A stretch of DNA of 64,000 nt from a virus, in IMG/VR virus record IMGVR_UViG_3300031962_000001, positions 28,915 to 92,914 of that record; one strand, 5' to 3'. Position numbers and translations under genes: made by a program. The notes below the pieces were generated by a model. The model saw nothing but the letters and a program-made list of their open reading frames with translations. It had not been told where the DNA came from and did not search any database. Below are positions 10,827 through 59,919 of the stretch, piece by piece. Every line of letters begins with the position of its first letter. Within the stretch, counting starts at the first letter, position 1.

Positions 10827-12506
10827 ATGGGAACTGGATTCCAACCTGCCATCTTTTCAGCGGCATCAGAAAATATATTGCTATCCAGTCTGTCTTCTCT
10901 GATGCCGGGAAGCACTATCTTTACAGAAGCCAACGTAGTAGCCATGACGCTGTCCTATACCGCTACGGGAGGCAGCTTCTCTATTTCATTGCTGAAGGAT
11001 ACCATAGCGCCGTCAAAGATACTTGAAGACATGCTGATAGGACTGCCGTTCGGCAGAACAGGAATCGTCAAGTCTGTATCTAGTGGCTGGAGCACTGGTG
11101 GGATGGTGGATATCCTTTCTGGCCCAGCTCTCACCCTCAATGGCACTGCGCAGACGGCCGCTCAGACTCCTCCAGACGTGCCGAACGTTGGCCCAGTTTA
11201 CGTCTCTCTAGCTGTTCTTGCCAATCAGGTTCTGTATGGATATGGTGGTGGGGGTATAATCGGTGGCACTGGACTTGGATATGGCAATGTCGTAGAATGG
11301 GCGATGCTGGTTCCGTTCATCAAGCACTTCGCGTTCAGAGGACAAGCTCTGGCTGGCTTGCAGCAAATCGCTTCGATCATGCTGGCAGACCTGATCGTCA
11401 GGAAAGACGGCTATCATTTCGTCAACGCTGGAGCCTATCCGAACGTCTCCAAGAAAATAACCATTTCACAGACAGACGTCATCAATGCCAATCAAGCCAT
11501 GGACTATTCTTCAGACGTGGCTTCCATACTTAATCCAACGCTGCTTCTCATCAACACTGGCCTCCCGCAACAATTCGTCTACGACTACGTTCACGCGCAG
11601 AAGCAGCCAAAGTTCACGGTTTCTGCAGGAGCGCCCAGCACTCTAGGAGCTACGGATTTCATACCGATACCGGATGGTTGGCTTGTAGATGGCAATTACG
11701 AAGAATGGACTCCGGCTAATCCTAGCGATCTTACCAATCCTAATGCTAGCGTCACAAATGGTAGATACTGGAAACAGTTCCCTTCTCCCACCAATCCAAA
11801 TATGATGAGAGGCATCACAAACTTCACGCGTCTGGTGAAGCAGATAGTGATACCAGGAAATGTGTCTTCTTTCATTGGCTCGCCAATTACTGGATTGACC
11901 AAACAGGGAGGGCCATTTGAATTCGCTTTCAACGATTACACTTCGAACCAGGGGATCTATGGACTAGACTCTAGTAGCAGTGCGACTGGCGTCACATTGT
12001 TTGACATCATAAGTCACCAGTTTCTTACGTTTCCAAATGCTATAGTGCTAATACCTCAGGGCGGTGGCACAAGCGGTGATGCGGCTTCTAGTTTCTACAG
12101 CATCACGATGGAACAGTGGACATTCCCGTTAGTGAACCCTCAAACTTTTACGCTTGGCACTCCACTGCCTCCTTCCAATGTCGCCATCGTGACACCGAAC
12201 TCCAATATCCAGAACGGGCAGAATGGATACTGGTTGTTGTATCTCTACAACTACCAAAAGCTCAATTCGCCGAGACTTAGAACATCGGTCGCCGCCGTCT
12301 ACAGAAATACGCTGCCTGAAGTCGGAGATCATCTGTTCGTGAACGGTTTGACGTACGCAGATTGTGGCAGAATCCAGACAGTGAACGTCAGCTTCTCCAG
12401 GACCGGCGGAGTGGTGCTCAACCTGACCGCTGAGCTCTATCAAGCCAAGAAAGGAAAATGGTCTCTCAGTCCTGGCGGAGCCGTAATTGGCGGCGGATTG
12501 CCGTAG
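10827..12506 (+). CDS. Baseplate/tail hub-like protein
   Basis: 559 residues from the ATG at 10827, one base after the previous TAG; an in-frame TTG at 10815 would add four residues but overlaps the upstream stop. Beta-rich, with FSISLLKDTIAPSKILEDML near the N terminus and a C-terminal segment resembling hub or late-control proteins (GDHLFVNGLTYADCGRIQTV). It is followed by two proteins with related N-termini. Position and size suggest the distal tail hub. No enzyme motif was seen. Confidence 0.5.
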   Translation: MGTGFQPAIFSAASENILLSSLSSLMPGSTIFTEANVVAMTLSYTATGGSFSISLLKDTIAPSKILEDMLIGLPFGRTGIVKSVSSGWSTGGMVDILSGPALTLNGTAQTAAQTPPDVPNVGPVYVSLAVLANQVLYGYGGGGIIGGTGLGYGNVVEWAMLVPFIKHFAFRGQALAGLQQIASIMLADLIVRKDGYHFVNAGAYPNVSKKITISQTDVINANQAMDYSSDVASILNPTLLLINTGLPQQFVYDYVHAQKQPKFTVSAGAPSTLGATDFIPIPDGWLVDGNYEEWTPANPSDLTNPNASVTNGRYWKQFPSPTNPNMMRGITNFTRLVKQIVIPGNVSSFIGSPITGLTKQGGPFEFAFNDYTSNQGIYGLDSSSSATGVTLFDIISHQFLTFPNAIVLIPQGGGTSGDAASSFYSITMEQWTFPLVNPQTFTLGTPLPPSNVAIVTPNSNIQNGQNGYWLLYLYNYQKLNSPRLRTSVAAVYRNTLPEVGDHLFVNGLTYADCGRIQTVNVSFSRTGGVVLNLTAELYQAKKGKWSLSPGGAVIGGGLP

Positions 12507-12515
12507 GAGGAAGAC

Positions 12516-12773
12516 ATGCCAGAAGGAAGCCCATTGCGTCTAGCGCTCAAACAGCTTATCCAAGAAGTACTAGACGAGAACTCAACTCAAACTACCGGAG
12601 ACTTGCAGCCAACGCAAGGAACTGTAATCAACATCAACGACGATGGTACGGTGGATGTCCAAGCATCAGATCAGACATTTTATGGAGTTGGCTATCCAGA
12701 CCCGAATGTGGTGATCGGCACGATAGTCATAGTCGTGACTGGTGACGGAGTGACGGCGGCGATACCACAATGA
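12516..12773 (+). CDS. Small OB-like tail protein, paralogue of the next gene's N terminus
   Basis: 85 residues; RBS AGGAGGAAG before ATG. PLRLALKQLIQEVL then VININDDGTVDVQ and VVIGTIVIVV parallel the next protein (PLREKFKELIRSSL, VISLNDDGTVLAA, VVIGQNVILV). The short helix plus beta-barrel pattern resembles the OB-like domains of baseplate hub proteins. The ATGA overlap suggests coupled translation with the next gene. Probably a duplicated baseplate module. Confidence 0.6.
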   Translation: MPEGSPLRLALKQLIQEVLDENSTQTTGDLQPTQGTVININDDGTVDVQASDQTFYGVGYPDPNVVIGTIVIVVTGDGVTAAIPQ

Positions 12774-14524
12774 GTGGACCTCTAAGAGAGAAATTCAAAG
12801 AACTGATACGAAGCAGTCTGTCATCTCAGGCTACTTTTGATACACCGACATACTCCCTTGCGAGCGTGATCAGTCTCAATGACGACGGAACGGTCTTAGC
12901 GGCAGATAGCAGGGGAAACCAATTCACAGCATTCCCAAAGTATCCGGTCGTGATTGGACAGAATGTCATACTGGTAAACGATGGCCAAGGAAATATCTCA
13001 GCTGTCCCCGTAGGCGCTTCAGTGCAGCCAACAGAAGTCATACATCCTCCATTTTTCAGCGGTAAGATTCAGACTCTATTCACTGGGCAAATTGGGCCTG
13101 GAGCTTTTGGAAACAATTCACTTTTTGACAATCAATTGGATATTCTAGTGCAACAGGCTGGTAGCAATAAAGTCATAGCCATTAGAGCTAGGGACATTCT
13201 GAAATCTGCCGATTACGCCGAAGCGCTCCTGGCAAGCCAAGCTGGGACTTGTTTTGTACCAATGGCAGTGTCTACCGATCACAGAACTATGGCGATAATT
13301 TATCCCGCTTATGTCTCTCATGATGGATACGGCACTCCTTTCTACGTGATATTTCTAGACATTTCTGGATTGACTGCTGGAAATGTATTAAGCGCCCCAC
13401 TCGGGATCTACGCTCCATCTGCTATCAAAATTATAAGTTACAATTCTGGTCCCTACTCTCCTGGACCATACTTGTTTCCTCTCAATCCGGCTACTGGACA
13501 ATCTCTAGCAACAGTCTTCGTCAGCAATTTTTCATTGGCGAGTCCTTCATTGGCGTATTTATTCTATTTTCATTCTATAGGATCAGAACTATTGGTCACT
13601 ATAGCTAATCTGGCTTCTGGACAGGGTTCGGACGTATTAGGACAAGCTGGCATAGATAGTTTTACTATACCAGCTTATCCGAATGGAAATTTTGTGGGCG
13701 ATTTGGTTTTCGGGCCTTTCCAGAATCCATTGGATCTCAGGTTCCTACTTAACTATGCTTGGTATCTTCCGAACTACCCGTTCCTCAGTGGCACAGACAA
13801 TGCAAATCAGATATTCTTGTCTATTGTGAATGCTGCGTTCGATGGAAATTCCTTGGGTATTCTACTTCAGTTAGATACTTCTCAACCATACCACCACACT
13901 GTTGGTCAGTTTCCAGGCTACATTGGAAGTTTTACTCCTGTCTACTCACCTAGTCCACTCGTCAGTCATACCAGTGATAGTACCAATGGCGCCATACTTC
14001 AGAACAATCTCGTACAAACTCAAAATTCCAATTCTGAGAACTTTTGGATAGGTCTATACAAACTAGACAATCACACTGGAACTCCTGCAATACTAAACAC
14101 GGCTCTTCTCTATAGGGGAATGGTCTCAAAACCACCGGGCTTAGACTACATCACATTGCCATTGGACAGCTCTATACAATCAGGCCCTCCCAGTGGTGGA
14201 ATTGCTCCTAACACTCAAAGAACCATACTTCCCACCCAGATGGCGGTGATAAATACAAAATTCTATGCGATAGACTATTCTGACTGCGATGTCTCTGGTG
14301 GAACCTACTGGCTGCCGAAACTGTATCAGTTATCAGAGTTTCAAGGTCCTCTAGGAACTACTCTCACTCTGCCAAGCATCCCATCGAAACCAGCGCCCAT
14401 CCTAAGAAATATCAGCCCCGGATTTGTAGACCAAGACGCTATCAGACTATTTTCTAAATCTATAGACGGAACAGGATTGTATCAGTATTTGAACATATTC
14501 AAGATGGAAATGGCAAAACCATAA
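12770..14524 (+). CDS. Tail tip / receptor-binding candidate with OB-like N domain
   Basis: 584 residues. Residues 1-~90 repeat the domain of the 85-residue upstream protein. The remaining ~490 residues are beta-rich with many short Gly/Pro/Asn turns, suggestive of a beta-propeller or similar receptor-facing domain, but no blade repeat is clear. Last large gene of the tail operon, just before the holin-like gene, a common slot for adhesins. Function inferred from position and composition. Confidence 0.5.
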   Translation: MSGPLREKFKELIRSSLSSQATFDTPTYSLASVISLNDDGTVLAADSRGNQFTAFPKYPVVIGQNVILVNDGQGNISAVPVGASVQPTEVIHPPFFSGKIQTLFTGQIGPGAFGNNSLFDNQLDILVQQAGSNKVIAIRARDILKSADYAEALLASQAGTCFVPMAVSTDHRTMAIIYPAYVSHDGYGTPFYVIFLDISGLTAGNVLSAPLGIYAPSAIKIISYNSGPYSPGPYLFPLNPATGQSLATVFVSNFSLASPSLAYLFYFHSIGSELLVTIANLASGQGSDVLGQAGIDSFTIPAYPNGNFVGDLVFGPFQNPLDLRFLLNYAWYLPNYPFLSGTDNANQIFLSIVNAAFDGNSLGILLQLDTSQPYHHTVGQFPGYIGSFTPVYSPSPLVSHTSDSTNGAILQNNLVQTQNSNSENFWIGLYKLDNHTGTPAILNTALLYRGMVSKPPGLDYITLPLDSSIQSGPPSGGIAPNTQRTILPTQMAVINTKFYAIDYSDCDVSGGTYWLPKLYQLSEFQGPLGTTLTLPSIPSKPAPILRNISPGFVDQDAIRLFSKSIDGTGLYQYLNIFKMEMAKP

Positions 14525-51766: not shown

Positions 51767-52477
51767 ATGAAAAAGAAGATTCGTAGATTCCCGCGTCTTA
51801 GCCCACGCAGGTTTCCGCGTCTGCCTGAGGATTTTCCAGAACTTGTGCCAAAGAAGAAGAAAATGTTCATGGGAGTCAGCGTCGAAGGCGGCAGGATTCC
51901 CAGAAACTATAACAAGTTAACAAAGAAACAGAAGCGGGCTATCAGGCTCGTAGTCAACGGCATGACCATCAATGACATGTGCCGCAAAGTAGATATCCAT
52001 CACAACACGTGGTATCGCTGGCTGCATCTGCACGAAAAGTTCAAACACTACTATCTACGCTACGCTAACAAGCAGGCGCTAGTCACAGAAGGGAGGCTGG
52101 ACGCGAAGGTTGGCAGAGCAGTGCAGGTCGTAGAAAGTTCGTTAGACAGCGCCGATCCGTACTTCGCACACGACGCCGCCGTCAAGCTGCTATCTGGCCG
52201 TGGGCTTTACAAAAAGAATGTGGAGCAGAACAAACATGTCAGCGGCTCGGTCATGCACGGTGTGGTTGGCAAGGTGGAACACCAAATCGTAGACAAGGAC
52301 CTGATGGTGGCTTTCGTAGACGCTCTTACAGGCAAAGCCATAGGAGCGCCGGAACACAAGGAAAAGGTAATCAACGCGAAAGTTCTGAAGAGTTTGCCGG
52401 AGCCGAGGAATGGTATCAATACCGAAATACAAAAAATCGTCGAAGCAGAAGCTGTACGATCAGATTCGACAAGCTAA
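51767..52477 (+). CDS. Terminase small subunit-like protein with two N-terminal RFPRL tags
   Basis: 236 residues. Begins MKKKIRRFPRL, then RRFPRL (51785-51820), before an HTH domain, LTKKQKRAIRLVVNGMTIND plus VDIHHNTWYRWL, like phBC6A51-type small terminases. The C-terminal part is helical. It would bind the packaging start site and recruit the ATPase, whose gene overlaps by 68 nt. The tags precede the DNA-binding domain, so they could add DNA contacts. Confidence 0.7.
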   Translation: MKKKIRRFPRLSPRRFPRLPEDFPELVPKKKKMFMGVSVEGGRIPRNYNKLTKKQKRAIRLVVNGMTINDMCRKVDIHHNTWYRWLHLHEKFKHYYLRYANKQALVTEGRLDAKVGRAVQVVESSLDSADPYFAHDAAVKLLSGRGLYKKNVEQNKHVSGSVMHGVVGKVEHQIVDKDLMVAFVDALTGKAIGAPEHKEKVINAKVLKSLPEPRNGINTEIQKIVEAEAVRSDSTS

Positions 52478-53654
52478 AGGAATCGCTGGCGTTCGTGAGC
52501 TGATGCGTCAGTATATGTCGCCTCAGTTCAGAAGACAGATGGTTTCTTTATCGCCAGAGTTCTTCCTGACCTATTACCTTGGCTTCAAGCTGCCGATGCA
52601 CCAGCAAAAATGGATCAAGCTGTGGAGAGTGAAATATCTATTGGACCTAGCGCCTAGAGATCATGGCAAGTCGTGGATATTCTCTTACGGCCATCCATTG
52701 TACGAAATATACGCGGACTTCGTGAAGAACAATCTGGAAGAAGTGAAGTTCCGCTTCCTGCAAATTTCCAAGACAGACGACCAGTCCTCCAAATACGCTA
52801 ATCAGGTTCGCGAGACGATCGAGAGGAATCCTTACCTGCGCGAAGACTTCGGAAACATACAGGACTCTGACCACTGGCTCAAGGGCTACTTCGCCTGCAA
52901 GCGCAAGGACACCGCGATCAATATCGAGAAAGACCACACCTATGAAAAGACAGGAGTACTGGGCGGTATCACCGGAGGGCATTTTGAGTTTATCAACGTT
53001 GATGACCCACTCGATGACGAAAACACGAAGAATACTGAACGTATGGATTCTGTCGAGAACTGGTTTTGGGGCACGGTCTGGAATCTTAGGGAAACATATA
53101 CTCGAATCCGGGTTGTTGGGACTCGTAAAAACAGACGAGACCTTTTCAACACGCTGATACAGTCGCCGCTCTGGAAAAAGAACATCGAGCGAGCTATTAT
53201 CAAGTATCCGATGATAATCGACAGGTCTACGAACAGACAGATACAAGGCTGGCTCTACAAGACAGACAAGGGCAGGCATGTCCGCAATATGTCAGAGCTG
53301 CGCAGTGAGGAAATCATTGTAGACGTGGAACTCTTGACAGATGACTACGAAGTCTTGTGGCCCTCGACGGAAGCTCTAAACGAGAAGGGCGAAATTGAGA
53401 TGACGCCAGTGATCGATCAAGACACGGGCGAGGAAATAGGTCAGCAGCCAAAAGTGTTTGGGTGGGGGATCAAAGAGCTTTTGCTAGACAGAGCCGGTTC
53501 TGGAGCGTCGGTATTCGACAGAGAGAAGCAGAACGAAATCAACGCCGAAGAAGGTGGAGTGTTCAAAAAGGACTGGCTCCATCTCTTCAATCAAGACCAG
53601 CTGTACCTGAACGATCAGGACTCCTATTTCTATCTCCTCCCGGAGGCAGCATGA
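52410..53654 (+). CDS. Terminase large subunit, ATPase half (split gene)
   Basis: 414 residues. Walker A-like LAPRDHGKSW, a motor core, Walker B FINVDDPLDDE with its Glu, and VVGTRKN (coupling motif) match phage TerL ATPases. The protein stops at LLPEAA, where the nuclease domain should begin. That nuclease is encoded 2 kb downstream (55685), beyond a HAD/ART gene and others. The ATPase motor pumps DNA through the portal. The split at the domain boundary is unusual. Confidence 0.85.
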   Translation: MVSIPKYKKSSKQKLYDQIRQAKGIAGVRELMRQYMSPQFRRQMVSLSPEFFLTYYLGFKLPMHQQKWIKLWRVKYLLDLAPRDHGKSWIFSYGHPLYEIYADFVKNNLEEVKFRFLQISKTDDQSSKYANQVRETIERNPYLREDFGNIQDSDHWLKGYFACKRKDTAINIEKDHTYEKTGVLGGITGGHFEFINVDDPLDDENTKNTERMDSVENWFWGTVWNLRETYTRIRVVGTRKNRRDLFNTLIQSPLWKKNIERAIIKYPMIIDRSTNRQIQGWLYKTDKGRHVRNMSELRSEEIIVDVELLTDDYEVLWPSTEALNEKGEIEMTPVIDQDTGEEIGQQPKVFGWGIKELLLDRAGSGASVFDREKQNEINAEEGGVFKKDWLHLFNQDQLYLNDQDSYFYLLPEAA

Positions 53655-53944
53655 AATCGCTAGAAGAATTAAAAGAAGAGTACAAATCTCTTTGTCATGC
53701 TATGCAAAGTGGTGTGGCTGCGAAGATGAACGTGGACGATTCTGAGTGTAAGCCGAAGCATCTGAGAGTTGGTGTGAACTCTTCGATGGTGGATTCTTCA
53801 GCTCTCGCCAGACTCCTTATGAGAAAAGGAATCATCGTAGAACAGGAATACTACGAAATCCTCGTAGAAGTAATGCGCGAAGAAGTGGAGAGTTACAAAA
53901 AGTTCCTGAGCGATCATTATGGGTCTAATATAAATCTTGCGTGA
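53651..53944 (+). CDS. Small helical phage protein inserted between the terminase halves
   Basis: 97 residues from the ATG at 53651 (RBS CGGAGGC, overlap of 4 nt). KHLRVGVNSSMVDSSALARL then IVEQEYYEILVEVMREEVES looks like a small helical phage protein type common near packaging genes; I cannot give a name. Part of the ~2-kb segment that separates the ATPase and nuclease genes. Confidence 0.5.
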   Translation: MKSLEELKEEYKSLCHAMQSGVAAKMNVDDSECKPKHLRVGVNSSMVDSSALARLLMRKGIIVEQEYYEILVEVMREEVESYKKFLSDHYGSNINLA

Positions 53945-53951
53945 GGAAATT

Positions 53952-55436
53952 ATGACTGACGCCGATCTCCTTTACGAACGCAGGCTTCTGGAGCAGGAGC
54001 AGCAAATCCATCCAGACCCTGTCACGCAAATACAGTACATCCAGAAGCAGCTGCCGAGAGCTGGCGGCCAGGGGAAAGACTACACTGTTTGCATGGACTT
54101 CGATGGCGTGCTGTCATTCCATAGAACCGGCGATTCCATAGACAAGATCGGACCTCCACTCCAGCCAGGAATCCAACTGGCGAAGCGTATCGTGGCTTCT
54201 GGTCTTAAGCTGGTGGTCCTCACGGCGAGGCCGGAGCAAATGCATGACACAATCCTTGGATGGCTCAAAGGCCAAGGAGTCAAAGCCTACGAGGTGACGA
54301 ACATCAAGCCACCAGCGGCTCTGTATATCGACGATCGCGCAGAAAAGTGGCCCCAGAATTTTACTGGGCATAGAGAAGCCATCCGTCGCATAGACGAATT
54401 TGGAACTCGCTTGCTTGAACATGGCATAAAGGGACAGAAATGGCATCATCACAAGCAGAAGGACGAGCCTGAATCCAAAGGCAGAGCCTTGAAGCTGAAA
54501 GACAAAGATATTAGGACTCAGAGAGATTCTCTAGAGCTTGTCAAGCAGGCAGAAAAGCAGGCTGGTCTCAGCGCCTTGATGTACGCTGGTAGAGATGAAG
54601 AGCAGAAGGGAATTTCGGGCGGCTCTAACCTTGACAAATTGTACTCAGAGTTGGAAAAAAAGAGCGATCGTCTGGAAAGACTTGAAGATAAGATAGACGA
54701 CCTTCGCGACAAGAAATACTATGCCTCTAGCGAAAAGAAAGCGGCGATAAGTGAAAAGATAGCTAGCATGAAAGACGAGATGTCAGAACTTAAGGATAGA
54801 GTTAAGTGGCTAGACAAGGAAACGGATAGGCGTGAAGATAGCGATGAGACGGCATGGGACCCTTCTAGAATATATCGCCACGCTCTGTTCGATGCCGCTG
54901 GCTTCTCAGAAAAAGATTACAACTCGTTCCATGGGCATATTGAAGATTGGGCAGACGATGGTGGAGGTAAGAACCATCCATTGCGCCTAGCAGCGAAGGA
55001 AATTGCCACTGGGAATGTCAGAAGTATGAACGCCAAAGGCCTCCTAATAGAAAACGCCATCAATGCAATCTACTATGGCGAGAACAAAGACGTACATCTG
55101 TTCCGTGGCATAGACACGGCTAAGATGGAGAAGATCGTTAGGAAGGCAGAAAAAGAAGGCAAGGACTACGTCACTGTCTTGTTCAATCATTCCGACCATT
55201 GGAGCACCTCAAAGGACACTTCTAAAGATTTAGGTGAGACAGTGTTCTGTTCTAGGAATTTCTTCTATGGAAAAGATATTCTATTAAGCTACAAAACAAA
55301 CCATATCTTTGACGAGTACGAAAGCGAAAAAGAAGTTGTGCCTCTGGTGAAGAACCAGAAAATGAAATTTGCCTTGAACGCAAAAGCTGACAAGGGCAAC
55401 AGAGTGAGATTTTACGATGAAGGAGAATTTGACTAA
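53952..55436 (+). CDS. HAD-like phosphatase plus ADP-ribosyltransferase fusion, with HGIKGQKW tag
   Basis: 494 residues from the ATG at 53952 (RBS GTGAGGAAA). Residues ~45-145: HAD fold with VCMDFDGVLSFHR (D-x-D), VVLTARPEQ, K-P-P and YIDDRAEKW. Residues ~157-165: HGIKGQKWHH, a motif common in phage head proteins. Residues ~215-300: coiled coil. Residues ~375-480: ART-like R-S-E order, LFRGI, HWSTSKDTSKDLG and YESEKEVVPL. Such ARTs are often packaged in the head and injected to modify host proteins. The gene lies between the terminase halves. Confidence 0.65.
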   Translation: MTDADLLYERRLLEQEQQIHPDPVTQIQYIQKQLPRAGGQGKDYTVCMDFDGVLSFHRTGDSIDKIGPPLQPGIQLAKRIVASGLKLVVLTARPEQMHDTILGWLKGQGVKAYEVTNIKPPAALYIDDRAEKWPQNFTGHREAIRRIDEFGTRLLEHGIKGQKWHHHKQKDEPESKGRALKLKDKDIRTQRDSLELVKQAEKQAGLSALMYAGRDEEQKGISGGSNLDKLYSELEKKSDRLERLEDKIDDLRDKKYYASSEKKAAISEKIASMKDEMSELKDRVKWLDKETDRREDSDETAWDPSRIYRHALFDAAGFSEKDYNSFHGHIEDWADDGGGKNHPLRLAAKEIATGNVRSMNAKGLLIENAINAIYYGENKDVHLFRGIDTAKMEKIVRKAEKEGKDYVTVLFNHSDHWSTSKDTSKDLGETVFCSRNFFYGKDILLSYKTNHIFDEYESEKEVVPLVKNQKMKFALNAKADKGNRVRFYDEGEFD

Positions 55437-55603: not shown

Positions 55604-55685
55604 ATTCGACGACCTTGAGCGAGTGAACAAGAGAGCCAGGAAGCTTTTTCGTCAACAGGAGCCAAGTAGACTGCGTGGACACTGA
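55545..55685 (+). CDS. Short basic protein (46 aa) before the terminase nuclease
   Basis: ATG at 55545 with RBS GAGGGAG; stop TGA overlaps the nuclease ATG (TGATG). The product is basic and helical (FDDLERVNKRARKLFRQQEP). The tight coupling suggests co-production with the nuclease half. Function unknown. Confidence 0.45.
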   Translation: MATKRLTEVKKPEVKPKDSRFDDLERVNKRARKLFRQQEPSRLRGH

Positions 55686-56356
55686 TGCTAGTCTTAAGAC
55701 CTCAACAGTTCGCTGATCTAGCGCTCCTCTCAGACAAAGACCCGCAGGCACGGAAGCGTCCAGATGGGACAGTCATAGCCGACTGGTTCTGTCTGGCGAC
55801 CGCGTCTAGAGTCAACGCTCTGGTATATTTGCTGGACCTGTACCGCGCTCAGATTCCATTTCCAGATCAGGTCAAGGTCCTCGCTCGAGAACATTGCCAA
55901 TGGCACTCAGTTTCCATCGGCATTGAAAACCATGCGTACCAGTGGGCGCTAGGACAGCAAGCATGGGCAATCGGTTTGCCAGTAGTCCCAGTCACATATC
56001 CAGGAGACAAGCTCTACAAGTGGCAGTTGGGCACGCCACACTTCGAGTCCGGTAGAGTCAGAATGCGCGGCGTGCGAGAACCCAACGGCGAGTTGACGCC
56101 ACATCCGGCATTTAGAAGATTCGTGAAGGAAGCACTGGACGCGCCATACGGGGAAAATGACGACACGATAGACGCAGTCATCGGCGTAGTGCTGATGTGC
56201 ACTGGCCCAGAGTTCGTGGCGAAGGAATTCGCTGGCGGACTGACAAAGGGATTCGCCATCGCAGTAGCTGGTGGCACAGGACGCAGGTGGACCATCCCGG
56301 GAATACACACGGGCAGGAATGTAGATCCGTACGACGAATTCAAAAGCGAGTTCTAA
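55685..56356 (+). CDS. Terminase large subunit, nuclease half (split gene)
   Basis: 223 residues with the RNase H-like TerL nuclease layout: FADLALLSD (Asp11), an extended strand VYLLDLYRAQ, IGIENHAYQWALGQ (Glu81), GLPVVPVTYPGDKL, and GENDDTIDAV (Asp159-163). It would cut concatemeric DNA when the head is full or at a cut site. No ATPase motifs. In most phages this domain is fused to the ATPase encoded here at 52410. Starts in the stop of the 46-aa protein. Confidence 0.8.
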   Translation: MLVLRPQQFADLALLSDKDPQARKRPDGTVIADWFCLATASRVNALVYLLDLYRAQIPFPDQVKVLAREHCQWHSVSIGIENHAYQWALGQQAWAIGLPVVPVTYPGDKLYKWQLGTPHFESGRVRMRGVREPNGELTPHPAFRRFVKEALDAPYGENDDTIDAVIGVVLMCTGPEFVAKEFAGGLTKGFAIAVAGGTGRRWTIPGIHTGRNVDPYDEFKSEF

Positions 56357-56379: not shown

Positions 56380-56904
56380 ATGGGCGGATATTATGGATTG
56401 CCGATTTTCAAACAGCACGAACTGACTAGCGTGAAGCGACTGCGGGAAGGCGCTATGCACAAGCTCCCCGACGGCAGCGGATTCTTCACTGCTACTATCC
56501 AAACGCCAAAGACAAAGGAAGGCGGACCCGGCTCAGGACCGCAAGGCGGACGGCATCCAAAGGCGAAATCTAAAAAAGTCTCTGACGCACGACAGTCGGC
56601 TCTAGATCTTAAGCAGAACAAGAAACATCTTGTTGCTGCAGACAAGCACGACAGAGCAGAAAATGAGCATTATGAGAAGATGAAGGAAGAAGAACAGTAC
56701 GATCACGACAGAGCCGCTAACCTGCATGACAGAGCTTCGACTCTACACTCTGAAGCTTCTGAAGCGCATCGTGCAGCGATGGAAGATCCTGGGAATCGTG
56801 GAAAACATGGAAAGGCTGAAACTGCTTCTTGGCGTGCTTGGAACGCATCTACTCATGCAGACAACGCATCTGATGATGCTCAAGATGAAGATTGGGAGAA
56901 ATAA
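56380..56904 (+). CDS. Virion-associated candidate with GGPGSGPQGG motif
   Basis: 174 residues. Residues ~46-56 hold EGGPGSGPQGGRHP, a Gly/Pro tag seen in many phage head-gene products. The rest is a long helical, D/H/A/E-rich region (AADKHDRAENEHYEKM, HDRAASTLH-like repeats), with repeated H-D-R-A units. The gene sits between the nuclease and the portal and may encode a scaffold, internal head or decoration-type protein. The portal ATG overlaps its stop by 1 nt. Confidence 0.5.
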   Translation: MGGYYGLPIFKQHELTSVKRLREGAMHKLPDGSGFFTATIQTPKTKEGGPGSGPQGGRHPKAKSKKVSDARQSALDLKQNKKHLVAADKHDRAENEHYEKMKEEEQYDHDRAANLHDRASTLHSEASEAHRAAMEDPGNRGKHGKAETASWRAWNASTHADNASDDAQDEDWEK

Positions 56905-59543
56905 TGGCAACCTCAGTCAACAATCCTACGAACGCGCCTCCCATCAAGGGTCAGGCGCTCCCGTTCATTCGCAAGGAGTCCGGCGCAATTACCGCCAACG
57001 CGAACAAAGACGCGTTCAACGACGGTAAGGACTACAAGGACGAAGGCGCTCCTCTGCTGACTACAAACTACGGCATCAAGCCTATAGCGCCATATGGCTT
57101 CATCACCAATCCGCTGGTCTTGCCGCCGACTCGAGAGGAAATGGAAGCGTTGTCCCATCCCGACGAGTCCAGTCAGACGCAGATACAATATCTGAAGGAA
57201 GCCGTCGTGATGGACATAGACGCCAAGATAATCGTGTCCACAATGGAGCAGATGAAGCGCGGCGTCTTCAGAGAAGCGCACTATCCTACGATGCTGGACT
57301 ATATCGCCAGTCCACACTACAAGAAGCTCCGAGAAGCCAAGGCAGTGGCTGAGCGTCTGGTGGGGATTGGAAACAAAACTCGTCTGCGTGAAAGCGACGC
57401 AACGATAGCGGGCGTCAGGCTCAATCCACGCCTGGTCTACGCCATCAACAAGGTGGACAAGACGGTTATCCAAGGACTCCAGAAAAAGGGATTCGACAAG
57501 GAACTCAAGCGCCTGCAAGAGTCCTTCGCTGGCAGCGGAGTGCGTCTCAAGGAAGACAGCTTCACAATGGAGCCGAACTGGGACGGTGGCATGTCCGGCT
57601 CCCTAGCTGGTAGACAGCCAGACTTTACTCCTCTTATCGCTGGCCCGTTCAACAAGCAGTTATATTGGTTTGACTATTTGGACATGCACTCCAAATGCTT
57701 CGAGGCGAGCACGCACAATCCGGTTGCAAAGCGCATCATCAAGGTCATAACGCAATTCGTCCTAGGCAAGGGAGTAAAGCTCACAGTCCAGAGAGCAATC
57801 CGTAAGAGCGACAGGCTCAAAGCGAAGCAAGACACTGCGCAGCTCGCTTCCAAATTAGTTGGCACAGGAAAGCAGCCTCCTATTACGATACAAGATTTCA
57901 CTGAGCAATGCCAATCTGAATTGGACCAGCACTGGACGCAGAACCAGTTGCATATTCGCAGCAAGCAAATTCTCAAGGACCTGCTGACTTTCGGAGAGCA
58001 GTTCATTCGCTACTTCGACGCGCCTTGGGGACTCAAGATTCGCCAGATAGACCCGTCCACTGTCTGGGAAGTAGTGACCGATCCTGACGATTGCGAAAAC
58101 GAGTTCTACCTCCATCAGCAATATCCAACTCGTTACCAGTGGTATGTAGACCTGCCAGTCCCAACGATCAAATTCATTATTCGCCAAGTTCCGGCTGCGC
58201 TCTACTATCACATGAAAATCAATTCCACTTCTGGCGAAGTGCGAGGCAGATCAGAGCTGTTCGCAATCCTTGGTTGGTTGAAGCGCTTGAAGGAATGGGC
58301 ATCCGATCGCGTCGTGAGAAACAAGATGGCCAATCTCTTTATTCTCGACGTGGCGGTAGAGGGAGACTTAGGAGCTGTGCAGGCTGTTCAACAACAGTTC
58401 AGCACTCCGCCCACTCCGGGCTCCTTCTTCGTGCATAACAAGGCGGCAGAACTCCAAGGAGTCAACGTAGAAATCGGAGCCAACGATGCGTCTGGAGACT
58501 GGGAAATCTTCATGACATTGGCCGCGATGGGAGCTGGTCTGTCTAAAGAATATCTTGGCATGTCTACAGACGGTGGGAAGGCTGGCGCATTGGTCGGCAC
58601 CGAGCCGGACATCAAATCGTTCGAGGACTACCAAGAGCTGATGGAACAGTTCTTCCTGCAAGACGCTCAGCGACTGTTCCAGAGGATCAAAGAGCGTGGT
58701 CAGCTCCCACAAGATGTAGAAGTAACGATAGAAACTACGTATCCAAGTCTAGCGGAGGAAAACAGATCTGAGAAGCTGAAGGACTTCGCGTTCGGTGAAT
58801 CTATGTCTTGGTGGTCTCATCGCAGGACTGCTACTGCCGCCGCTAAAGAAATGCAGATGACTAGCTACAATTACGACGAAGAGCAGAAGCAGATAGCTAT
58901 GGAAGATGCAATGAAACAAGTCTTGCTCAACACAGCCTACCAGCAGGTGACGAAGGGCGTAGACAATTCTAAGTCTGCCACTGGGGGTGGTGGTACAAGC
59001 TCTGGAGGTAGCGGCAAGGGTGCAAGTGGTATGGGGATGGGCAGACTTCCCGGTGCTACCTCCAGCAGCAAACAGTCAGACAGTACGGACGCTCTGACTG
59101 GAGACCAGGGCTATTTGACAGAGGCAGAAGATGAAGACGACGAAGGACTTTCGGCGACTGCGCCAGGAACGGCGTTCCCAGCGAGAGGCTCAACAATCGC
59201 AACTACTCACAATGCTTCAATGGGAGATAAGAGGAATCCTTGGCGAGGCACAGAGGTTGACGCAAGCTCTGGAAGACGGGACCATTACAGAGGACAGGAT
59301 CCTAGAGATATTGCTTCTGGTATTAAGCGTGAAGCAACGAATCTCAGATATGAACGTAGGGCCATCGGGCGGAAAAATGACCGTGTGCAAACTCCTGATA
59401 AAAGACGAGATCAGAAGAGCATGGACCGGGGCGAAATCATCGCTGATGCCAGACAAGCGCTCAGCTCCGGAAATCTAGGCCACGAGTCCAAGAAAAAGAT
59501 ACGCCGATTCCCCCGCGAAGCAGACGACCGGAGGTCCCTTTGA
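56904..59543 (+). CDS. Portal protein with RFPREA tag at its end
   Basis: 879 residues from the ATG at 56904. The core (residues ~240-660) has LYWFDYLDMHSKCFEASTHN, DLLTFGEQFIRYFD, RGRSELFAILGWLKRLKEW and MSTDGGKAGALVGTEPD, as expected for a dodecameric portal. After ~700 the tail is G/S-rich, then charged, ending KIRRFPREADDRRSL (tag at 59505-59516). The stop TGA at 59541 sits in a release-factor-2-like +1 shift signal. A 115-codon overlapping frame (59131) lies in the tail. Confidence 0.85.
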   Translation: MATSVNNPTNAPPIKGQALPFIRKESGAITANANKDAFNDGKDYKDEGAPLLTTNYGIKPIAPYGFITNPLVLPPTREEMEALSHPDESSQTQIQYLKEAVVMDIDAKIIVSTMEQMKRGVFREAHYPTMLDYIASPHYKKLREAKAVAERLVGIGNKTRLRESDATIAGVRLNPRLVYAINKVDKTVIQGLQKKGFDKELKRLQESFAGSGVRLKEDSFTMEPNWDGGMSGSLAGRQPDFTPLIAGPFNKQLYWFDYLDMHSKCFEASTHNPVAKRIIKVITQFVLGKGVKLTVQRAIRKSDRLKAKQDTAQLASKLVGTGKQPPITIQDFTEQCQSELDQHWTQNQLHIRSKQILKDLLTFGEQFIRYFDAPWGLKIRQIDPSTVWEVVTDPDDCENEFYLHQQYPTRYQWYVDLPVPTIKFIIRQVPAALYYHMKINSTSGEVRGRSELFAILGWLKRLKEWASDRVVRNKMANLFILDVAVEGDLGAVQAVQQQFSTPPTPGSFFVHNKAAELQGVNVEIGANDASGDWEIFMTLAAMGAGLSKEYLGMSTDGGKAGALVGTEPDIKSFEDYQELMEQFFLQDAQRLFQRIKERGQLPQDVEVTIETTYPSLAEENRSEKLKDFAFGESMSWWSHRRTATAAAKEMQMTSYNYDEEQKQIAMEDAMKQVLLNTAYQQVTKGVDNSKSATGGGGTSSGGSGKGASGMGMGRLPGATSSSKQSDSTDALTGDQGYLTEAEDEDDEGLSATAPGTAFPARGSTIATTHNASMGDKRNPWRGTEVDASSGRRDHYRGQDPRDIASGIKREATNLRYERRAIGRKNDRVQTPDKRRDQKSMDRGEIIADARQALSSGNLGHESKKKIRRFPREADDRRSL
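59131..59478 (+). CDS. Candidate gene overlapping the portal tail in the +1 frame
   Basis: 115 codons with a plausible RBS (GAGG, 7 nt before ATG). The product is helical and protein-like (ILGEAQRLTQALEDGTITED, then ILEILLLVLSVKQRISDMNV). The portal frame here is charged low-complexity sequence, so either frame could be the older one. No family recognised. It may be only a shadow; the RFPR tag shows the portal frame is used further 3'. Confidence 0.35.
   Translation: MKTTKDFRRLRQERRSQREAQQSQLLTMLQWEIRGILGEAQRLTQALEDGTITEDRILEILLLVLSVKQRISDMNVGPSGGKMTVCKLLIKDEIRRAWTGAKSSLMPDKRSAPEI
59529..59543 (+). other. RF2-like +1 programmed frameshift site at the portal stop
   Basis: CGGAGG-TCC-CTT-TGA: a Shine-Dalgarno-like GGAGG three bases before CTT-TGA, the arrangement of the bacterial prfB (RF2) +1 frameshift. 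A slip from CTT to TTT enters the frame at 59542, which encodes E-S-R-F-T-E-H-G-I-K-G-Q-R-W-G and is open to 59919. Confidence 0.6.
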
Positions 59544-59919
59544 GAGTCGATTTACTGAACACGGAATCAAAGGACAAAGATGGGGCATCCACAAGGCGAA
59601 GGACATATCCACGTGGAGCAAGGTGGGCGCGGCCGAAGGCAGCAACGTTGGTGGATACTACAGAGACCCAGCAGGCATAAAATATTACGTCAAGTTCTAC
59701 AACAGCAATGAACAGGGAAGATCTGAAATCCTAGCGAACAGCATCTACTTGCCAAAGAAGAAAAAGACGCAAGAGTCCATGGAGCCTTTCAAGCCACAGG
59801 ATGGCGACCAGCTCCAGAAGCCAAGAGTTCTTCCTGTAGAAGACCACAACGCCGCTCCACGTCCTACAGGAAAAGTAAATCCAAGAGGGTGGGGTGCTAG
59901 CAAGAAAGAAAGGATTTAG
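59542..59919 (+). CDS. Portal C-terminal extension (by +1 frameshift) with HGIKGQRWG motif
   Basis: 125 residues open from the portal stop. It starts ESRFTEHGIKGQRWGIHKAK, the same kind of tag as in the HAD/ART protein and widespread in phage head proteins, then a beta-rich part (GGYYRDPAGIKYYVKFYNSN) and a basic/P-rich end. The in-frame stop at 59476 and lack of ATG/GTG/TTG before the tag mean it is best explained as a read-on from the portal. A GTG at 59623 could start a shorter protein without the tag. Confidence 0.6.
   Translation, partial: ESRFTEHGIKGQRWGIHKAKDISTWSKVGAAEGSNVGGYYRDPAGIKYYVKFYNSNEQGRSEILANSIYLPKKKKTQESMEPFKPQDGDQLQKPRVLPVEDHNAAPRPTGKVNPRGWGASKKERI

Follow-up and report, generated by a model that had tools for sequence, protein, structure and literature searches.

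The portal gene and its 3' end

The window (the whole 64,000-nt stretch of DNA analysed here) spans bases 28915 to 92914 of a virus record that is 92,914 bases long; the features discussed below are collected in Table 1. The portal ORF was assigned by the phrog_10963 portal profile, which matched across the portal core; Pfam Phage_portal_2 also matched (7.6e-6, 25.7 bits), under its cut-off of 32.9. The ORF is listed from the TTG, but the ATG at 56904 appears to be the likelier start, because of the comparison with the portal of the relative L013. At the 3' end the ORF reads GAC-GAC-CGG-AGG-TCC-CTT-TGA, so that the product terminated there ends RRSL. The sequence-only reading had claimed a prfB-like end, CGGAGG-TCC-CTT-TGA, and this was found at 59530-59543 in the portal frame, with the spacer TCC at 59535-59537, CTT at 59538-59540 and TGA at 59541-59543. 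Thus, an SD (Shine-Dalgarno)-like purine run precedes the slippery codon by exactly 3 nt, and CTT-T is followed by a zero-frame TGA. TGA is an ordinary stop codon in this phage (31 of 65 genes).

Table 1. Features of the portal locus and of the second site in the same record
Feature	Position	Strand	Description and evidence
Portal ORF, zero frame (short product)	56892..59543	+	883 codons from TTG 56892, 879 from ATG 56904; phrog_10963 (9e-13); relatives L002, L013-L015
Internal Shine-Dalgarno-like GGAGG, 3 nt 5' of CTT	59530..59534	+	Sequence; prfB and, in three phages, the second gene have it at the same place
Slippery CTT, then TGA stop	59538..59543	+	Predicted +1 slip from CUU onto UUU, with GAG read next; sequence; CTT-TGA also kept by three phages in the second gene
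+1 reading frame, C-terminal extension of the predicted long portal	59542..59919	+	125 codons plus TAG
Cassette: HGIKGQRWG tag and beginning of domain (GSNVGGYYRDPAGIKYYVKFY...RSEILAN)	59542..59748	+	65% identity to an internal L015 stretch
Conserved portal tail, SMEPFKPQDGD...GASKKERI	59776..59919	+	In the portal frame in L013, L014 and L015; dN/dS ~0.11 versus L015, 0.19 versus L013
Second gene with GGAGG-NNN-CTT-TGA and conserved +1 continuation (L040)	G000:C1:12400-13525		~15.4-16.5 kb before window base 1

In the +1 frame, TAG codons at 59476-59478 and 59917-59919 bound an open stretch that reads ESRFTEHGIKGQRWG past CTT-T. The claims that this frame is open to 59919 and encodes EHGIKGQRWG, and that it holds no normal start codon between the stop at 59476 and the motif, were borne out; the earliest ATG, GTG or TTG is GTG 59623, beyond the HGIKGQRWG motif.

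Upstream in the window, the terminase large subunit is encoded in two ORFs (ATPase part, 52410-53654; nuclease part, 55685-56356). The split terminase with intervening ORFs was seen in all the relatives (L002, L013, L014 and L015), with a HAD-like ORF between the halves in most of them. The ORF between the halves at 53937-55436 has a HAD-like start, HGIKGQKW in its middle and, by eye only, an ADP-ribosyltransferase-like end; its L015 counterpart matched an ADP-ribosyltransferase (DRAT) weakly, under the cut-off.

Relatives of the portal

Portal relatives were taken from IMG/VR, and all phages compared are metagenomic records. Identity to the window portal was 49% for L002 (best segment), 58% for L013, 63% for L014 and 59% for L015, and two distant relatives showed 32%. 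No relatives of the portal were found in bacterial genomes, and among named phages it had one weak match. Intein-like insertions were observed in the portals of L014 and L015 (near residue 270) and of L013 (within FY/HQQYPT; L013:4013-7798), and none in the window portal.

The intein-bearing L013 portal runs in a single frame through to ...RFPRERKRKREG-MEPFKQQDGDRVQRPRVEHVEDH...GFGASKQEEFSQ. The L014 portal is continuous, with a cassette (EGGPGSGPHKK...) between RFPRE and ESMSPFK, and the L015 portal is continuous as well, with a cassette (AGVKGMKWGNQK...) preceding RFPRESMEPFK. The window +1 frame ends ES-MEPFKPQDGDQLQKPRVLPVEDH...GWGASKKERI, with 60% identity to the L013 tail (pair E 6e-19) and 36 of 47 residues (77%) identical to L015. 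The comparison proposed earlier, of related portals for a continuous frame, thus found three that run without a break into the same tail, and because of this the +1 frame is predicted to be the genuine portal C-terminus. The portal tail is under purifying selection (for dN/dS, see Table 1), and a selected continuation in the +1 frame, as at a prfB-type site, is therefore present. Because L014 and L015 carry other small cassettes at the same place, the portal tail of this clade is taken to accept tag-bearing cassettes, the window extension being one of these with the conserved tail behind it.

The window cassette resembles an internal part of a 761-aa tagged ORF of L015, and the similarity begins at the first codon after the predicted slip (ESRFTEHGIKGQRWGIHKAKDIS in the window, ESAFLEHGVLGMKWGVHKAKDIS in L015). 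In the zero frame, homology to the relatives is still present at RFPRE (59505-59519). The frame break thus falls in a stretch of ~22 bases that includes the signal. In a comparison of the whole record with the ORFs of the relatives, only the portal had matches in two frames at a single place; the tagged L015 ORF also matches the record in two frames, yet at two separate places. Comparison of the record with the relatives' genes showed no further frame break inside a gene.

The signal is not conserved at the portal itself, where L013-L015 have in-frame fusions. The L002 portal stops near the end of the window short product, without the tail, and no separate L002 gene showed significant similarity to the tail. 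From the end of L002, the two-length reading of the window portal and the fusions of L013-L015, we therefore consider that across the clade the tail is carried by no portal subunit (L002), probably by some (the window phage) or by all (L013-L015).

The HGIKGQ(K/R)WG tag (Pfam DUF7211, PF23847) occurs in several head-region proteins, as it does here; the difference in this phage is its attachment to the portal via a change of frame. The tag in the L015 ORF matched DUF7211 weakly, below the cut-off. The cassette domain, GSNxGGxYxDxxGxKYYVKFY (L015:86-2371), also forms part of very large proteins in named phages (L008-L012); one such protein carries the annotation particle-associated ADP-ribosyltransferase, and one, in Gordonia phage GodonK, is encoded immediately downstream of the portal. 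EGGPGSGP is a second tag that recurs in these phages, in several head-module proteins (window 56524; L040:10706-12269; L014:7878, in the portal tail; L060).

Frequency of the signal

The signal pattern has a single exact match in the 64-kb window, the portal end. At wrong-frame stops within coding sequence (n = 5,816), CTT-TGA occurred in 1.5% and GGAGG at the exact spacing in 0.14%. The joint chance of both at a wrong-frame stop is ~2e-5, a single-site figure in which the number of windows first read is not factored; it is too high if anything, because the set of stops includes loci picked for CTTTGA. Across the whole 92.9-kb record, CTT-TGA closes just three open frames of 60 or more codons, and two of the three have GGAGG exactly 3 nt upstream, with the +1 frame open for 125 and 139 codons.

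The exact portal junction was absent from the other contigs searched, a set from which siblings very close to the window's record may have been withheld, and the portal site is known from one record. Scans of IMG/VR for the signal beside the HGIKGQRWG tag yielded no case with GGAGG. CTTTGA alone beside the tag was found nine times, none a +1 junction of the portal kind; in three of the nine, GGAGG lies one base before CTTTGA, within the end of the upstream gene.

A second site in the same genome

The second site lies outside the window, at G000:13105 of the same record, and reads CTCCGGAGG-TCG-CTT-TGA-A, with 238 open codons before it and 139 open +1 codons after it. The gene consists of part A (zero frame, 12400-13107, 235 aa) and part B (+1 frame, to 13525). 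Both parts are conserved in the records of L013 (G002) and L014 (G003) at ~52% amino-acid identity, with the junctions GGAGG-GGA-CTT-TGA-T (G002) and GGAGG-GGT-CTT-TGA-G (G003). Across the three phages the SD, CTT and TGA are invariant and the spacer codon differs (TCG, GGA, GGT). The value of pS is 0.7-0.86, around 0.75 and near saturation, and that of pN 0.28-0.35, around 0.33, and the two frames are similarly constrained. Given the encoded amino acids, the joint chance of CGG, AGG and CTT is 0.001-0.005 per phage. In the B frame no start codon stands at the junction; its starts come 22, 34 and 28 codons downstream at the earliest, except for one GTG ten codons upstream in G002.

A and B were not found in G001 or G004, which are possibly fragments; relatives of the second gene were absent from bacterial genomes, and the gene had no match in named phages and no family match above chance. 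In G003 the head maturation protease gene directly follows B, and in G002 one ORF (phrog_15531) lies between them; because of this position, A/B appears to be part of the head module.

Comparison with known systems

In prfB, the SD pairs with 16S rRNA and displaces the E-site tRNA, and, at low RF2, the tRNA-Leu moves onto UUU; CUU-UGA with an internal SD is the textbook autoregulatory device of this gene. The C after TGA weakens termination in prfB. We know of no description of the prfB frameshift as requiring a downstream RNA structure; at the portal, no stimulatory structure was detected downstream, the folding of 59541-59640 being no better than that of shuffles (z +1.06). The prfB signal is laid out as an SD-like sequence, three nucleotides, CTTT and TGA, and the portal site is alike in its SD-like sequence, 3-nt spacer, CTT, TGA and +1 continuation (PMC12421855). 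However, the signal is early in prfB, whereas here one copy is near the end of the portal gene and another within a second phage gene. The C that follows TGA in prfB is replaced by G at the portal and by A, T and G at the second-gene sites, and a base other than C may alter the efficiency of frameshifting. Neither gene is release factor 2: one is the portal, and the other is the gene lacking a family match. Unlike prfB, the phage genes have no feedback loop on RF2 synthesis, and the short product is possibly functional.

According to the PRFect paper, every CUU-stop +1 entry in RECODE is prfB (PMC10885494). In the Listeria phages PSA, A118 and A500 (tsh, cps), +1 frameshifts on CCC (proline) codons extend tail or capsid proteins (PMC5009743). 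The likeness is the C-terminal extension of a structural protein by a +1 frameshift; the difference is CCC in tail or capsid genes there, and CUU with an internal SD in a portal gene here. Among the open-licence papers searched, none dealt with frameshifting in portal genes, the tag family or the occurrence of this signal in phage genes.

Proposed programmed frameshifting and other explanations

The portal gene thus appears to contain a prfB-type +1 programmed ribosomal frameshift signal that would give a short and a long portal, and we put the probability of this at roughly 0.87. Ribosomes would pause at the portal UGA, GGAGG would pair with the anti-SD of 16S rRNA, the peptidyl-tRNA-Leu would slip from CUU to UUU, and part of the ribosomes would go on in the +1 frame. 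The short portal would end RRSL, and the long one would be extended by 125 residues that include the HGIKGQRWG cassette and the conserved tail. By analogy with prfB, we infer the occurrence of the slip at the portal, its efficiency and its dependence on RF2. The RF2-like frameshift proposed in the sequence-only reading is well supported by the in-frame tail of the relatives and by the second-gene signal in three phages. That reading had also named lack of conservation in relatives as evidence against itself; at the portal this is formally the case, because the relatives are simply continuous there, and the signal conserved in the second gene answers it.

An error of sequencing or assembly, or a very recent one-base insertion, in an otherwise continuous portal would leave the signal a coincidence. 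The tail is continuous in all three relatives that have it, the two frames join if one T is dropped (CCCTTTGAG in the record to CCCTTGAG), and the portal site was seen in a single record. However, an accidental break would have to land on the signal (~2e-5), the identical signal recurs in this genome at another junction, a conserved one, and the conserved genes show no further frame breaks. Since the second-gene signal is conserved in two relatives, chance or sequencing error is considered unlikely. Still less probable is a separate small gene downstream, starting at GTG 59623 or at a non-standard codon, with GGAGG as its ribosome-binding site. TTG 59540 overlaps the stop with GGAGG 5 nt before it, but is in the wrong frame, its ORF ending after ~46 codons; GTG 59623 has GGAG 4 nt upstream, but a start there would leave the conserved ESRFTEHGIKGQRWGIHKAKDISTW untranslated. 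Tagged proteins elsewhere commonly begin just before the tag, whereas the tail belongs to the portal in the relatives.

We give an equally slight chance to a cassette insertion that cut the portal short and left the downstream frame dead. The tail-less L002 portal ends at about this place and a short portal is apparently workable; against this, 125 codons are still open, the tail has dN/dS ~0.1 with changes not in excess, and the exact frameshift signal stands at the junction. Two further mechanisms were rejected for the portal: readthrough of the UGA, as a second zero-frame TGA follows four codons on, and transcriptional slippage, as the site has just TTT and CCC runs.

Implications

With frameshifting preferred, the short portal is plausibly functional, because the L002 portal ends nearby, and the long form would perhaps supply a few tagged subunits within the portal ring. 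Recombination is the probable route by which the cassette came into the portal tail of this lineage, recoding having restored the frame. More tentatively, and in our view with the odds against it, this clade of uncultivated tailed phages may use the RF2-sensing signal as a general device of the head module, in the portal and in a gene near the maturation protease. If so, head composition would follow the release-factor level of the host during infection, and the same short signal would keep out-of-frame cassettes in use. Conserved in phage head genes, the CUU-UGA signal would be in use outside prfB, with both products possibly functional; it gives a simple sequence rule for locating further such sites and raises the direct question of what a portal ring would need both long and short subunits for.
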